Positions 20,441 through 28,244 of a DNA stretch of 39,064 nucleotides are shown here, one piece after another. Made by a program: the position numbers and the translations under genes. This DNA is from Zetaproteobacteria bacterium (GTDB lineage: Bacteria > Pseudomonadota > Zetaproteobacteria > Mariprofundales > Mariprofundaceae): the NCBI GenBank assembly GCA_002746295.2, contig NVWS02000115.1, positions 1 to 39,064 on the forward strand. Direction: 5' to 3'. Each line of letters begins with the position of its first letter. Position 1 is the first letter of the stretch. Below the pieces are notes generated by a model. That model saw only the letters and a list, made by a program, of their open reading frames with translations, had not been told where the DNA came from and ran no database searches.

Positions 20441-20463
20441 AATGCGTGTAGAGGAGGGAAATG

Positions 20464-22143
20464 ATGAATGAATTTATGTTAATGGAGCCTAGCAACCAAT
20501 CTTTTCAAGAACTTTTTAGTCATGGTGTTCAATATATTGTGCCAAAATTTCAAAGAGATTACGCATGGAGTCAAGAGCAATGGGAAGATTTATGGTCTGA
20601 TATAGAGATTATGGATCAAGAATGTTTTCATTACATGGGGTATATTGTATTACAAAGAAAAGGCTCCCATCATTTTGAAGTGATTGATGGACAGCAACGC
20701 CTGGTCACGGCATCAATCATTATTTTATCGGCGATGAAAAAACTTGAAATACTTATAGAAAAACATGAAGAAGCTAAGGATAACCAAGAGCGTTTGGATG
20801 AATTAACGCGTCGTTTTATTGGCACAAAAAACTTAGTTTCACTAAAAATTAGCAGTAAATTATCCTTAAATAGAAATAATGATAAATTTTATCAAAGTAT
20901 ATGCTCAAATTTGTGTCCACCGAATCAACGTGGTTTGACGGTTACCAATCGTTACTTAAAAAACGCATTTGAATTTTTTAATAAAAAAGACATGGGCAAT
21001 ACAGGGGTAGAAATTGCTTCATTCGTTGAAAAGATAACCACCGCCATGATGTTTACGAAAATTGTCGTTCAGGATAATCTCAATGCATATAAACTTTTTG
21101 AAACGCTGAATGCACGCGGTGTTCAACTATCAACCCCTGATTTATTAAAAAATTATATTTTCTCAACGATTAGTAGCCCCAATAATGTGAGTGATGAAGA
21201 ATTGAATGATTTGGATTCAGATTGGTCTATGATTGTTTCTCAACTGGGTGAAAATAATTTTACCGATTTTACGAGATACCACCATAATTTTCAAAAAAAA
21301 CTTGTCACCAAAAAGGGATTATTTAAATCAATACGAGTATTAGCAAAAGAACCTAAATCTGCCTATGAATATATGCGTTCGCTGACTGAATATGCACCTG
21401 TTTATGGGGCATTATTAAATCCTAATGATGAGTGGTGGCGGGATCAAGGTGCAGAATATCAAGGTGCATCTCATTATTTAATAGGCTTAAATTTATTTAA
21501 CATTAAACAGCCGTTTACTATTTTAATGGTGGCTTTTGAAAAATTTATCGCTAAAGAATTTATTCAACTTTTGAAATACTTGTATGTGTTGTCCATACGT
21601 TACAATGTGATTTGCCATCATTCACCCAATGAACAAGAACTTCGTTATAATCAAATGGCAATGAACGTTTTTAACGGTAAATATACGCGGGCAAGCCATG
21701 TTAAGAATAGTGAGGAATTTCAATACCTCTACCCAGATGATGCTAAATTTCAAAGTGCTTTTGAATATCATCGTATGCCAAGTCGTCAATCTGCGAAAAA
21801 AATTAGATTCTTGCTTACAGAAATAGAAAAATATTTAGATTTTTCATCAGATTCTAATACAGTGGTGTTGGAGCATGTGTGTCCATATCATCCAGAGCAG
21901 GGATGGAGTGAGGAGTTTGGAAAAGGTGCGTCTGATGTGTATGACCGTTTGGGTAATATGATTTTATTGGGTAAGGATAACTTGAAACGTCAAACATTTG
22001 ATGAAAAAAAAGCATATTATAAAACGACTGCCCACCCTTTGGCGAATCAAGTGGCAACATACGAAACATGGGATGTAAACTCGGTAAACAACTACCAATT
22101 ATGGTTGGCTAAGCAAGCAGTAGAAACTTGGAAAGTTTCATAA
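20464..22143 (+). CDS. DUF262/DUF1524 predicted nuclease (GmrSD-like)
   Basis: The protein (559 aa) has the N-terminal ParB/sulfiredoxin-like DUF262 fold with FQRDYAW at 29-35 and DGQQR at 75-79, the predicted nucleotide-binding motif. The C-terminal DUF1524 region has a His-Me/HNH-like site: EHVCP with H471, LGNMILL with N498, then a conserved N, F, K and Y pattern. In studied relatives (GmrSD, SspE, BrxU) this pairing recognises modified DNA and cuts it, restricting phages with modified bases or acting with phosphorothioation. No partner system is nearby, so it may be a stand-alone type IV enzyme (inference). Two ATGs (20461, 20464) are possible; AGGAGG gives the second a 6-nt spacer. The gene is visibly more AT-rich than its neighbours, which suggests transfer. 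Confidence 0.85.
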   Translation: MNEFMLMEPSNQSFQELFSHGVQYIVPKFQRDYAWSQEQWEDLWSDIEIMDQECFHYMGYIVLQRKGSHHFEVIDGQQRLVTASIIILSAMKKLEILIEKHEEAKDNQERLDELTRRFIGTKNLVSLKISSKLSLNRNNDKFYQSICSNLCPPNQRGLTVTNRYLKNAFEFFNKKDMGNTGVEIASFVEKITTAMMFTKIVVQDNLNAYKLFETLNARGVQLSTPDLLKNYIFSTISSPNNVSDEELNDLDSDWSMIVSQLGENNFTDFTRYHHNFQKKLVTKKGLFKSIRVLAKEPKSAYEYMRSLTEYAPVYGALLNPNDEWWRDQGAEYQGASHYLIGLNLFNIKQPFTILMVAFEKFIAKEFIQLLKYLYVLSIRYNVICHHSPNEQELRYNQMAMNVFNGKYTRASHVKNSEEFQYLYPDDAKFQSAFEYHRMPSRQSAKKIRFLLTEIEKYLDFSSDSNTVVLEHVCPYHPEQGWSEEFGKGASDVYDRLGNMILLGKDNLKRQTFDEKKAYYKTTAHPLANQVATYETWDVNSVNNYQLWLAKQAVETWKVS

Positions 22144-25039: not shown

Positions 25040-26860
25040 TTATTGATGCAGTGCCGTAAAAACACGTGCGGCTAGAATTTCAGAAATACCAGAGACTTGT
25101 GCCAGTTGTGTACGGCTGGCGCGTTTGATGCCATCAATGCCACCGAAATGTTTGAGCAAGGTGGCGCGTTTGGCAGTGCCAATCCCCTCAATTCTGTCCA
25201 AGGATGAATGAAACATACTGTTTTTCTTGCGCTTGCGCATGTATTCGCCTGCAAAACGGTGTGATTCATCCCGAACACGGGCAATCAACATCAGAGCTGG
25301 GGAGTGAATACCAGGTTTGAGAGGACCATCACACCATGAGGACCACAATACTTCTGCACCAAGTTTTCGACTGACACCTTTGGCAACACCCACCTGTTTA
25401 AAATCCTTTAAACCTGCCAGTTGTGCAGCTTGAATGGCAATGTCCAACTGTCCTTTTCCACCATCAATCAGCATGACATCGGGTTTCGGCATTTTTCCTG
25501 CAACAATGGCGCGATAAAAGCGAGATAAGACAGCTTCCATCGCAGCATAATCATCGCTATCGGGTACATATTGGTTTTTTGTGGTCTCATCCAATTGGTA
25601 ACGACGGTAATATTTCTTTTCAGGACCTTGCCAACCACCATAAACCACAGCGGCCACAGTATGTTGCCCACTCAAGTGGGCGTTATCCACCGCTGCAATC
25701 AAATGGGGAGTTTCAGGCAAATCTAACAACTCTGCCAATGCTTCAAAGGCAGGCTTTTGATCGTGTTTATTGCCACCAGCTTGCTGCTGTTCACCTGTAC
25801 GTTGAATCTCTTTGATCCATTGTAAACGTTTGCCACGTTTTGGAATTTTAAGTTGGCTTGAACATGAAGCTTGAATTAATTTTAATAGTTTTTGTAATTC
25901 AGCAAGCAATGATGGATCACATTGCAATAGAATTTCTTTGGGCACTTGTTCATGTTGGTAATGCTCCATCATGAATGCTTGTAAAATTTCTTCATCTTCG
26001 GCATCACTGGCTTGTTTGAGGCGGATATTGTGTGTACCTAAATTGCAATGGGCGCGACGTATACCCATGCTGATACTTACCGACTCGGCGCGACGAATCA
26101 TGACAATCGCATCGGCTTCTTCGGGCAAATCGCTTTGTTCATTGCCCGCCAAAATACTTTGTAAAGCTTGAATTTTATCACGCCATTGTGCAGCAGCTTC
26201 AAACTTCATATTTTTAGAGGCTTGCTGCATATTTGTTTGCCATTGTTGTAAAATTGTTTGATTTTTCCCTTGTAAAAACAGTCGTGTTTCCTCAACTTGT
26301 TGTTGGTAGTCACGGTGTGAAACAATATCACAGCAAGGTGCAGAACAGCGTCCAATTTGGTGTTGCATACAGGGGCGGGTTCGATGGTGAAACGTGGCAT
26401 CATCACAATCACGAAGTTGAAATATGGCTTCCATGCTGTGTAAGGTTTGATGCACGGCATTGGCATGTGGAAAAGGTCCAAAATATTCACCTGAAAGCTC
26501 CCGTTTTCCACGATAAAGACGAAGTTTGGGGTAATGTTCATCGGTGAGCAGCAAATAGGGATAAGTTTTGGAATCCTTGAGTAAAACATTGTATCGCGGT
26601 TTAAGTTGTTTGATGAGGTTGTGCTCAAGAATCAAGGCCTCGGCTTCGGATGCGGCAAGACTAAATTCAATGTCACGAATTTGTTTGACCATGGCAAAAG
26701 TGCGTGGCACTTCGGGCTGACGTTGAAAATAACTGGAAACACGTTTGCGTAAATTTCGCGCCTTGCCGATATAAATAACTTTTCGCTGTGCATTGAGCAT
26801 GCGATAAACTCCAGGCTCTTGGGGGAGTTCATTGAGTTGAATAGGGGGGGCAATCCACAT
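25040..26860 (-). CDS. uvrC: Excinuclease ABC subunit C
   Basis: UvrC makes both incisions in nucleotide excision repair with UvrAB. The protein has 606 aa from the ATG at 26860, preceded by AGGTGA with an 8-nt spacer; a GTG at 26872 is an alternative. The GIY-YIG domain is N-terminal with GVYRM and VIYIGKARNLRKR; the UVR motif with FEAAAQWRDKI is near 200-215. The central RNase H-like domain has VDNAHLSG, MLIDGGKGQLD and DESHRFA residues for the 5' cut. Two helix-hairpin-helix motifs end the protein (IEGIGTAKRATLLKHFG and VSGISEILAARV). Full length for the family. uvrY is not adjacent. Confidence 0.97.
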   Translation of the reverse strand: MWIAPPIQLNELPQEPGVYRMLNAQRKVIYIGKARNLRKRVSSYFQRQPEVPRTFAMVKQIRDIEFSLAASEAEALILEHNLIKQLKPRYNVLLKDSKTYPYLLLTDEHYPKLRLYRGKRELSGEYFGPFPHANAVHQTLHSMEAIFQLRDCDDATFHHRTRPCMQHQIGRCSAPCCDIVSHRDYQQQVEETRLFLQGKNQTILQQWQTNMQQASKNMKFEAAAQWRDKIQALQSILAGNEQSDLPEEADAIVMIRRAESVSISMGIRRAHCNLGTHNIRLKQASDAEDEEILQAFMMEHYQHEQVPKEILLQCDPSLLAELQKLLKLIQASCSSQLKIPKRGKRLQWIKEIQRTGEQQQAGGNKHDQKPAFEALAELLDLPETPHLIAAVDNAHLSGQHTVAAVVYGGWQGPEKKYYRRYQLDETTKNQYVPDSDDYAAMEAVLSRFYRAIVAGKMPKPDVMLIDGGKGQLDIAIQAAQLAGLKDFKQVGVAKGVSRKLGAEVLWSSWCDGPLKPGIHSPALMLIARVRDESHRFAGEYMRKRKKNSMFHSSLDRIEGIGTAKRATLLKHFGGIDGIKRASRTQLAQVSGISEILAARVFTALHQ

Positions 26861-26932
26861 GAATAATATCACCTTTGCTGTGCAATCAAACGCGGCAAGT
26901 ATAGATGATAAATAATCACAATGGAAAAGGGG

Positions 26933-26983
26933 GTGGCACAGCTTTAGACAATTGATTATGATGCTCCCCGACGGTCGGGCATC
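26933..26983 (+). promoter_or_regulatory. Possible promoter and palindrome before roadblock gene 1
   Basis: GTGGCA (26933-26938) and TATGAT (26957-26962) are 18 nt apart, mirroring the spacing of the better promoter before gene 2. Just after it, CCCGAC-G-GTCGGG with flanking GATG/CATC forms a near-perfect palindrome at 26960-26983, overlapping the expected start site. It could be an operator or a 5' hairpin. It lacks a T run, so it is not a terminator. Confidence 0.35.
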
Positions 26984-27034
26984 GCTGTTGGATTCTGATC
27001 TAGATTTGATGGATGAAAATTAGGAAAGTTTGTT

Positions 27035-27439
27035 ATGAGCTTAAATGATACGTTAAAAAATGTTGTCGACAATGTAAGCGGAGCCTTGGGCTGTGGTGTG
27101 GTTGATTTACAAAGTGGTATGCTCTTGGGAGCGTACCACTCTGTTCCATATTTCACGCAATCATTCTTGGACGCTGTGGGTGCAGCCGCAGTGGATATGA
27201 TCCGTGGTCGTAATGTTGTTGCAGTACAAAAAATGATAGCAACACAACGTGGTGCTGATAAAGCACCTGGATTCACAGAGATTCAAATGACCTCTGAAAA
27301 TACCTATCACTTTGTATCTGTAGTTCCTGGTAAACCCAATGCTTTGGTTATTTTGATTACCAGCAAGCAAACCAATTTGGGTATGGGTTGGGCAGGTTTA
27401 CGTCAAGCATTGCCAGAAATTGCTCCGAAATGCCCTTGA
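27035..27439 (+). CDS. Roadblock/LC7-like protein, copy 1
   Basis: This is a 134-residue cytoplasmic protein resembling the roadblock/LC7 (MglB-like) fold. GCGVVDLQSGMLLG near residues 19-32 corresponds to the first strands, a long central helix with FLDAVGAAAVDM follows, and a C-terminal strand-helix ALVILITSKQTNLGMGWAGL matches the family's NLG segment. Such proteins dimerise and regulate small Ras-like GTPases or scaffold them, but no MglA-type GTPase is in the window. TAGGAAAG precedes the ATG. It is a tandem duplicate of the gene at 27636, with the upstream GGATGAAA-TTAGGAAAGTTTGTT segment also repeated. A strong terminator follows 23 nt after the stop. Confidence 0.75.
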   Translation: MSLNDTLKNVVDNVSGALGCGVVDLQSGMLLGAYHSVPYFTQSFLDAVGAAAVDMIRGRNVVAVQKMIATQRGADKAPGFTEIQMTSENTYHFVSVVPGKPNALVILITSKQTNLGMGWAGLRQALPEIAPKCP

Positions 27440-27462
27440 AAACGTATGTTGGATGACTATGG

Positions 27463-27488
27463 AAAAGCCTGCTTTTGCAGGCTTTTTT
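27463..27488 (+). terminator. Rho-independent terminator after roadblock gene 1
   Basis: AAAAGCCTGC (27463-27472), loop TTTT, then GCAGGCTTTT (27477-27486) and two further T form a perfect 10-bp stem. A near-identical hairpin ends the second copy's region at 28214. Confidence 0.95.
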
Positions 27489-27530
27489 ATGTTTAAGGTA
27501 AACCTTGGAAGCGATCAGCATGAAGCCTGA

Positions 27531-27560
27531 TTGACATGAATTTGTTATGGGTACTATCAT
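27531..27560 (+). promoter_or_regulatory. Promoter of roadblock gene 2
   Basis: TTGACA (27531-27536, full consensus), an 18-nt spacer and TATCAT (27555-27560, 5 of 6) lie about 75 bp before the ATG. With the preceding terminator this gives copy 2 its own transcript. Confidence 0.6.
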
Positions 27561-27635
27561 CCGCTGCGATGGTGAGAGGTATCTTGTGGTATTTCTTGAC
27601 TTAGAATTTAATGGATGAAATTAGGAAAGTTTGTT

Positions 27636-28040
27636 ATGAGTTTAAATGATACATTAAAAAATGTTGTGAATAATGTAAGCGGTGCCTTGGGTTGTGGTGT
27701 TGTGGATTTGCAAAGTGGCATGTTGTTGGGCGCACATCACTCCGTACCTTACTTCACACAATCATTCTTGGATGCTGTGGGTGCTGCGGCAGTGGATATG
27801 ATGCGTGGGCGTAATGTGAATGCTGTTCAAAAAATGATGGCAGCACAACGTGGTGTAGAGCAGGTATCTGGATTTACTGAAATTCAAATGACCTCTGAAA
27901 ATACCTACCACTTTGTCGCTGAAGTCCCTGGTAAGCCCAATGCTTTGGTCATTTTAATCACCAGTAAACAAACCAATTTGGGCATGGGTTGGGCAGGTTT
28001 ACGTCAAGCATTGCCTGAAATCGCCCCCAAGTGTCCTTGA
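27636..28040 (+). CDS. Roadblock/LC7-like protein, copy 2
   Basis: This protein has 134 residues, the same length as copy 1, with about 15 substitutions clustered in the middle (around residues 65-105). The N-terminal 30 residues and the C-terminal NLGMGWAGLRQALPEIAP block are almost unchanged. Synonymous differences outnumber amino-acid changes by eye, so both copies look maintained by selection. An in-frame ATG at 27615 exists, but the ribosome site TTAGGAAAG and identity with copy 1 support 27636. Its terminator is displaced 173 nt downstream by repeat sequence. Function is unknown beyond the fold; the two could form a heterodimer. Confidence 0.75.
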   Translation: MSLNDTLKNVVNNVSGALGCGVVDLQSGMLLGAHHSVPYFTQSFLDAVGAAAVDMMRGRNVNAVQKMMAAQRGVEQVSGFTEIQMTSENTYHFVAEVPGKPNALVILITSKQTNLGMGWAGLRQALPEIAPKCP

Positions 28041-28065
28041 TGTAGGCCTTCGACCATTGATTGAC

Positions 28066-28138
28066 TGTTATTCCCGAAATTTTGTGTCGAGAACCTTTCA
28101 TCTCAGTAAATCCTCGACAAAAGCATTTGAGGATGATG
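28066..28138. repeat. Two-hairpin intergenic repeat, copy C (diverged)
   Basis: This copy has the same orientation as copy A. It shares TTATTCCCGAAAT, a middle segment, then AATCCTCGA and AAGCATTTGAGGATGATG. It is 73 bp long because of a few extra bases in the spacer. The second hairpin, ATCCTCGA (28110-28117) with TTGAGGAT (28127-28134), is intact with one G-U pair; the first has one mismatch. It lies between roadblock gene 2 and its terminator. Confidence 0.7.
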
Positions 28139-28213
28139 TTTGGAGTGTAGGGACAGGTCTTGTGCCTGCCTTCGGGGATAAGGTTATTTTTAGTTAAACG
28201 CGTAACATTCGTT

Positions 28214-28244
28214 AAAAAGCCTGCTTATTGCAGGCTTTTTTTTT
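28214..28244 (+). terminator. Rho-independent terminator upstream of tmk
   Basis: AAAAAGCCTG (28214-28223) pairs with CAGGCTTTTT (28231-28240), with a 7-nt loop and four more T. The stem repeats that of the roadblock gene 1 terminator, so it is probably the original terminator of copy 2. Confidence 0.93.

Follow-up and report, generated by a model that had tools for sequence, protein, structure and literature searches.

Introduction

Group 3 MglA systems of beta- and gamma-Proteobacteria, as described by Wuichet and Sogaard-Andersen (PMC4316618), comprise an MglA-type GTPase to which either one or two roadblock proteins are coupled, and in addition a functionally uncharacterised protein with a receiver-like N-terminus and a winged-helix C-terminus. 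According to the same paper, these GTPases have an unusual G5 motif, DxR (DAR), and many MglB homologs are orphans. MglC of M. xanthus, a homodimer that binds MglB, is described in PMC7949163 as lacking the extra N-terminal strand and the C-terminal helix of MglB, and roles are given there for its dimer strand S70-N75 and for F102. An orphan roadblock gene, mglB-3 of Snodgrassella, is presented in PMC11112851: it belongs to a Group 3 system, lies far from the operon and was modelled on MglC, and its mutation is reported to alter type IV pilus-dependent motility. Our literature searches found nothing on roadblock proteins in combination with Marinobacter, or with GTPases and Zetaproteobacteria, and no paper that we recognised as describing the roadblock pair between uvrC and tmk which is the subject of this study.

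A tandem gene pair between uvrC and tmk

The window, by which we mean the whole stretch of DNA that was analysed (39,064 nucleotides), is an entire contig (C92, 39 kb) from a draft genome (G000, 2.1 Mb) whose nearest named relatives are MAGs of the Mariprofundaceae; the host of the roadblock pair is probably an iron-oxidising marine bacterium. The two tandem genes of 134 residues that an initial annotation of this DNA had proposed are real and lie between uvrC and tmk (Table 1). The list of open reading frames also contains an in-frame ATG for copy 2 at 27615, but the start given in Table 1 was preferred in view of the leader and of a comparison with copy 1. Elsewhere in the window, at 20461-22143, a GmrSD-type (modification-dependent) restriction protein is encoded.

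Table 1 Positions of the roadblock pair, its flanking genes and its putative expression signals in the window.
Feature	Position	Strand	Basis or remark
uvrC	25040-26872	minus	upstream flank of the pair
Promoter-like site of copy 1, GTGGCA-18-TATGAT, 9/12	26933..26962	+	102 nt before ATG
Leader/ribosome-binding segment common to both copies, before copy 1	27011..27034	+	sequence comparison
Copy 1, 134-aa MglC-like roadblock protein	27035..27439	+	ORF list, predicted structure, codon comparison
Terminator-like hairpin GCCTGC-TTTT-GCAGGC after copy 1	27464..27485	+	pattern search, not terminator scan
Promoter-like site of copy 2, TTGACA-18-TATCAT, 11/12	27531..27560	+	105 nt before ATG
Leader common to both copies, before copy 2	27613..27635	+	sequence comparison
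Copy 2, 134-aa MglC-like roadblock protein	27636..28040	+	ORF list, predicted structure, codon comparison
Terminator-like hairpin after copy 2, just before tmk	28214..28240	+	terminator scan
tmk-holB	28283 onward		downstream flank of the pair

The two copies are 90% identical in protein and 84.6% identical in DNA sequence and differ by 13 amino acids. The description of near-identical ends and a diverged middle holds for the proteins, with 1, 3, 9 and 0 nonsynonymous codons in the successive gene quarters, but not for the synonymous changes (12, 12, 7 and 12). Because these are distributed over the whole gene, gene conversion was rejected as the source of the identical ends.

Each copy has, as had been proposed, its own promoter-like site, a common leader and a hairpin. 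Both hairpins consist of GCCTGC/GCAGGC with a T-run and are located about 24 nt past the first and about 173 nt past the second stop codon; the first was found by a pattern search (1 match versus 0.04 expected), the terminator scan itself having reported the second one only. Promoter-like sites were also found 100 and 104 nt before the ATG of the two copies in a related genome, G005, and 102 nt before the single copy of the sister genome G010. The promoter score at the respective distance was matched by 67, 1, 75, 0 and 15 of 5000 base shuffles for copies 1 and 2 of the window, the G005 pair and the G010 gene, respectively. Since the G010 gene has its site at the same distance and is followed by nearly the same hairpin as copy 1, a tandem duplication of the gene with its promoter is supported. 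The stronger claim that the whole unit was duplicated stands for site position and motif but not for the DNA as such: because the two units resemble each other only from about 34 nt ahead of the ATG to the stop codon, the claim rests on position and motif, and the two promoter regions differ in sequence.

The common leader contains two GGA motifs close to the ribosome-binding site, which we take to be reminiscent of CsrA sites. The idea that the leaders contain an RNA element was rejected on the basis of folding z-scores (0.06, -0.73, 0.35, -1.44 and -1.46) and of Rfam, which detected a single tRNA and nothing else in the whole window.

Fold of the encoded proteins

Searches of the pair against Pfam, NCBIfam and PHROGs gave no useful match, weak matches to LEP503 and avidin being judged to be due to chance, and none of 24 family members matched the Pfam Robl_LC7 or other roadblock models at E <= 1. 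The miss by Pfam is a matter of detection threshold and no structural criterion. A profile of 24 relatives compared with PDB sequences ranked M. xanthus MglC first (E 0.001). The predicted structure of the pair protein (pLDDT 89.5) has the order alpha-beta-beta-alpha-alpha-beta-beta-beta-alpha, which contains the roadblock/LC7 arrangement alpha-beta-beta-alpha-beta-beta-beta-alpha, and Foldseek retrieved MglB and other roadblock proteins with it at E values of about 1e-8. Superposition of the model on MglB gave Z 15.4 (119 residues, rmsd 2.1) and that on MglC gave Z 13.1 (110 residues, rmsd 3.3). The proposed fold was borne out in this way despite the silence of Pfam, and the pair proteins are, as modelled, clearly of the roadblock/LC7 fold.

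Age and constraint of the duplication

G005 carries both copies in the same place as the window, and G010 carries one copy flanked by the same genes. At the tmk loci of G002, G004, G008 and G009, neither uvrC nor the roadblock gene is found within 1.5 kb, and the location between uvrC and tmk is therefore peculiar to the subclade of the window; the apparent absence of the roadblock gene from G007 is unsafe, as the contig breaks off there only about 174 bases upstream of tmk. The two window copies differ by a dN of 0.05 and a dS of 0.88, giving a dN/dS of about 0.06, and both are under strong purifying selection. Since dS is lower between copies (0.72-0.88, with dN about 0.05) than towards G010 (1.13-1.33, one pair not being computable), the duplication is probably younger than the split from G010 and older than that of G000 and G005. 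The protein tree, contrary to this order, joins G010 with copy 2, albeit weakly (90/24).

This tree has 62 rows, i.e. 60 gene copies from 52 of 80 loci of a named-genome scan plus the two window copies. It separates tandem duplications in the clade of the window (100/99), in a Ghiorsea pair (99/99) and in a paralogue group of Thiotrichaceae (98/94), less firmly also in G004 (91/71) and in G011, which has a long branch, and indicates from these sequences that tandem duplication arose repeatedly in several lineages. We took 50 of the 80 named loci for counts of gene copies and GTPases; a survey of this kind had been suggested together with the initial annotation, and it gave one copy in 37 genomes and more in 13.

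The recurrence of tandem duplication, together with the 90% identity, the common leader and the like promoter spacing, would fit a second copy that merely boosts expression and has no distinct role. We regard such a pure dosage effect as rather unlikely, as the promoter regions differ in sequence and as most of the 13 differences are older than the split of G000 and G005, the copy 2 protein being identical in both genomes, so that the copies appear to have been kept distinct.

The initial annotation had further read the differences as specialisation for pairing, and this part was not upheld. The 13 differences fall mostly in columns that are variable in the family (mean column entropy 2.42 bits versus 1.01 elsewhere, p = 2e-6, in 57 relatives outside the lineage), three of them (positions 56, 68 and 96) in columns of middling variability, and the residues aligned to the MglC dimer strand S70-N75 (here 81-86) and to F102 (here L115) are the same in both copies. 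Ordinary drift in a variable loop would account for such a pattern, with homo- and heterodimers being equally possible. That the copies now form an obligate heterodimer would agree with the retention and constraint of both, and roadblock proteins often occur in heteromeric complexes (PMC9481161). Given the unchanged dimer-strand residues, the location of the differences and the fact that the sister genome and 37 of the 50 named genomes manage with a single copy, we consider it very improbable.

Association with MglA-type GTPases in relatives

The 80 loci of the named-genome scan belong mostly to Zeta- and Gammaproteobacteria, among them Mariprofundus, Ghiorsea, Marinobacter, Thiotrichaceae, Competibacteraceae and Solimonas. 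Nitrospira contributes a few more, and one MAG each bears the label Phycisphaerales, Microbacteriaceae or Myxococcales. Among 397 genomes drawn from the phylum and filtered for a completeness of at least 90%, 27 contained the roadblock gene at E <= 1e-5. Clustering of the neighbouring genes showed that, of the 80 loci, 52 have a phosphoesterase (c1), 44 an MglB-like roadblock protein (c2), 41 a small GTPase (c3) and 24 a further protein, c4, our candidate for the Group 3 protein of unknown function; as ORFs were called in a simple way and grouped by single-linkage BLAST, c2 and c3 may include some other roadblock or GTPase proteins. Single members matched Robl_LC7 (c2), Arf/Ras/ATP_bind_1 (c3) and Metallophos (c1) in Pfam. 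The commonest neighbour, c1, has about 517 aa and a C-terminal calcineurin-like phosphoesterase domain (e.g. L032:8264-9880); in the genome of the window it is unlinked, on contig C5. In other Mariprofundaceae, a two-domain globin (L045:6878-7771) and an ODP-family protein of beta-lactamase fold (L048:8547-9293) are encoded beside the MglA cluster, and an oxygen input is possible in view of these genes. At two Nitrospira loci and in one gammaproteobacterial MAG (L041:5624-7644, L044 and L054:6433-8417), a divergent relative precedes a larger GTPase-like protein, of which the L041 one only matched Pfam Arf; this arrangement is perhaps a second GTPase system.

Of the 50 named genomes, all of which carry the roadblock gene, 49 also have an MglA-type GTPase, Marinobacter salinexigens (G097, locus L084) being the sole one without a match at E <= 1e-10. 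The distance between roadblock gene and GTPase was within 2 kb in 27 genomes and 2-10 kb in 10, and in the remaining 13 the GTPase was farther off, on another contig or, in G097, missing. Tandem copies were more frequent in unlinked (5/13) than in linked genomes (4/37; Fisher p 0.04), a comparison which ignores kinship and was excluded as evidence. In 61 relatives, the roadblock gene was present in 19 and the GTPase in 22 (both 16, gene only 3, GTPase only 6, neither 36), weak GTPase matches of G003 (E 2e-6) and G009 (E 1e-7) being scored as absent; the co-occurrence is significant, with kinship ignored (Fisher p 2e-7). The three carriers without GTPase (G017, G022 and G032) have divergent copies of 28-32% identity. 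Together with G097 they could be taken to mean that the roadblock protein acts without an MglA-type GTPase and that the linkage is incidental, an explanation to which we give little credence since 49 of 50 named genomes have both and since the two genes are at most 10 kb apart in 37 of them.

The GTPase operon and its adaptors in the genome of the window

The statement that no GTPase partner is nearby is correct for contig C92, where the GTPase profile gave no match, but contig C16 of the same genome carries the genes of an MglA-type GTPase and of an MglB-like protein. The genome search for such a GTPase, which had been recommended earlier, found this one, unlinked to the pair (E 1.9e-64), and a weak match on C2. 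The C16 cluster encodes, in this order, the MglB-like protein (139 aa; Pfam Robl_LC7 E 3.6e-9), the putative adaptors c6a (219 aa) and c6b (239 aa), the GTPase (190 aa) and a ferredoxin. The GTPase has the motifs GTPGQ and DPR, and GTPGQ as well as the D and R of the G5 motif are invariant in 19/19 aligned relatives. The hhalign comparison of the pair's family with the family of MglB-like neighbours found in relatives was weak (112 columns, E 0.0014, probability 17%). Seven matches to secretion/pilus (T2SSE) ATPases pass the Pfam cut-off in this genome and make type IV pili plausible.

The c6 adaptors beside the GTPase (L165:7672-9236, C16) resemble c4 over 46 C-terminal columns only and are shorter. 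Their predicted structure, modelled from L037:1636-2262, has a pLDDT of 86 and gave no match to PDB structures below E 0.001, and Pfam searches of 11 c6 members returned one stray match and no family; a PATAN-like reading of c6 was dropped on these results.

There are four c6 copies each in G000 and G005, two of them beside the GTPase, as compared to one each in G010 and G007. This parallel expansion of c6 and the roadblock pair is the most suggestive new point, and it concerns one branch. It raises the idea that each roadblock copy is paired with a different adaptor, as the adaptor by the GTPase is tandem-duplicated, with two more copies elsewhere, in just G000 and G005. We hold this to be unlikely: G004 and G011 have tandem roadblocks yet one c6 each, relationships are poorly separated in the adaptor tree, and G010 is 88% complete.

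Proposed role of the pair

We favour, as probable though by no means certain, the reading that the pair represents paralogous MglC-like second roadblocks of a Group-3-like MglA switch which is encoded elsewhere in the genome, and that their gene was relocated and then duplicated. This reading builds on the observed sequences, linkage, co-occurrence, constraint and single copy of the sister genome and on the predicted fold, from which we infer relocation, dimerisation, binding partners, bridging role and output. In this subclade, the roadblock gene would have moved out of the GTPase cluster to a place between uvrC and tmk and would then have been duplicated in tandem, promoter included. By analogy with M. 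xanthus MglC, the protein of each copy probably dimerises via its beta3 strand and probably forms a bridge from the MglB-like protein to an adaptor acting upstream, perhaps c6, and this bridging would set the place or time of GTPase activity. The output would probably be type IV pilus function or surface motility, a guess supported by the effect of the Snodgrassella orphan roadblock on type IV pilus-dependent motility. Most likely, the two copies overlap in function and differ mainly in expression or in small surface preferences. The silence of Pfam on 24 members, the weak hhalign result, the carriers without GTPase and the replacement of MglC K104 and R106 speak against the MglA-switch reading.

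A bolder version, in which one GTPase and its MglB-like protein read at least two signals via paired sets of duplicated MglC-like bridges and duplicated adaptors in a two-channel polarity switch, with oxygen as a conceivable signal in Mariprofundaceae, where globin and ODP genes adjoin related clusters, is speculative and in our estimation quite unlikely. If true, oxygen could guide the surface movement of iron oxidisers. Apart from this, a widespread roadblock family missed by Pfam and NCBIfam models emerges that regularly accompanies MglA-type GTPases in Gamma- and Zetaproteobacteria, and this MglC-like subunit has repeatedly been duplicated and unlinked. The role of second ('orphan') roadblocks thereby becomes open to experiment in hosts that can be cultivated, for instance Marinobacter or Mariprofundus.

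Comparison with known systems

With MglC of M. xanthus, the pair shares the roadblock fold, a similar N-terminal stretch (residues 1-26), the conserved beta3 Glu and alpha3 Gly, and the status of a second roadblock protein beside MglB. The extra N-terminal strand and C-terminal helix of MglB are lacking here as well, helix 3-13 being the first and helix 115-132 the last element of the model. In size the window proteins are like MglC, although with 134 aa they are longer than its 120 aa. The FDI motif in the beta1-beta2 turn, which contacts MglB in MglC, reads DLxSGM here, within a turn that is conserved as D24-L25-x-x-G28-M/L. The RomR contacts K104, R106 and R110 correspond to M117, W119 and R123, and because only one of the three is kept we call the pair MglC-like rather than MglC. 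A GTPase with a DxR-type G5 motif and a coupled MglB homolog on C16 are shared with Group 3 MglA systems, whereas the present system is zetaproteobacterial, its roadblock pair is unlinked, and its putative counterpart of the unknown protein, c6, is shorter and multiplied. The mglB-3 gene of Snodgrassella, which we liken to the pair by its description, is a single copy encoding 121 aa, but it likewise belongs to a Group 3 system with one roadblock gene away from the operon. The pair is a new, tandem-duplicated and unlinked member of an already known kind of GTPase regulator.
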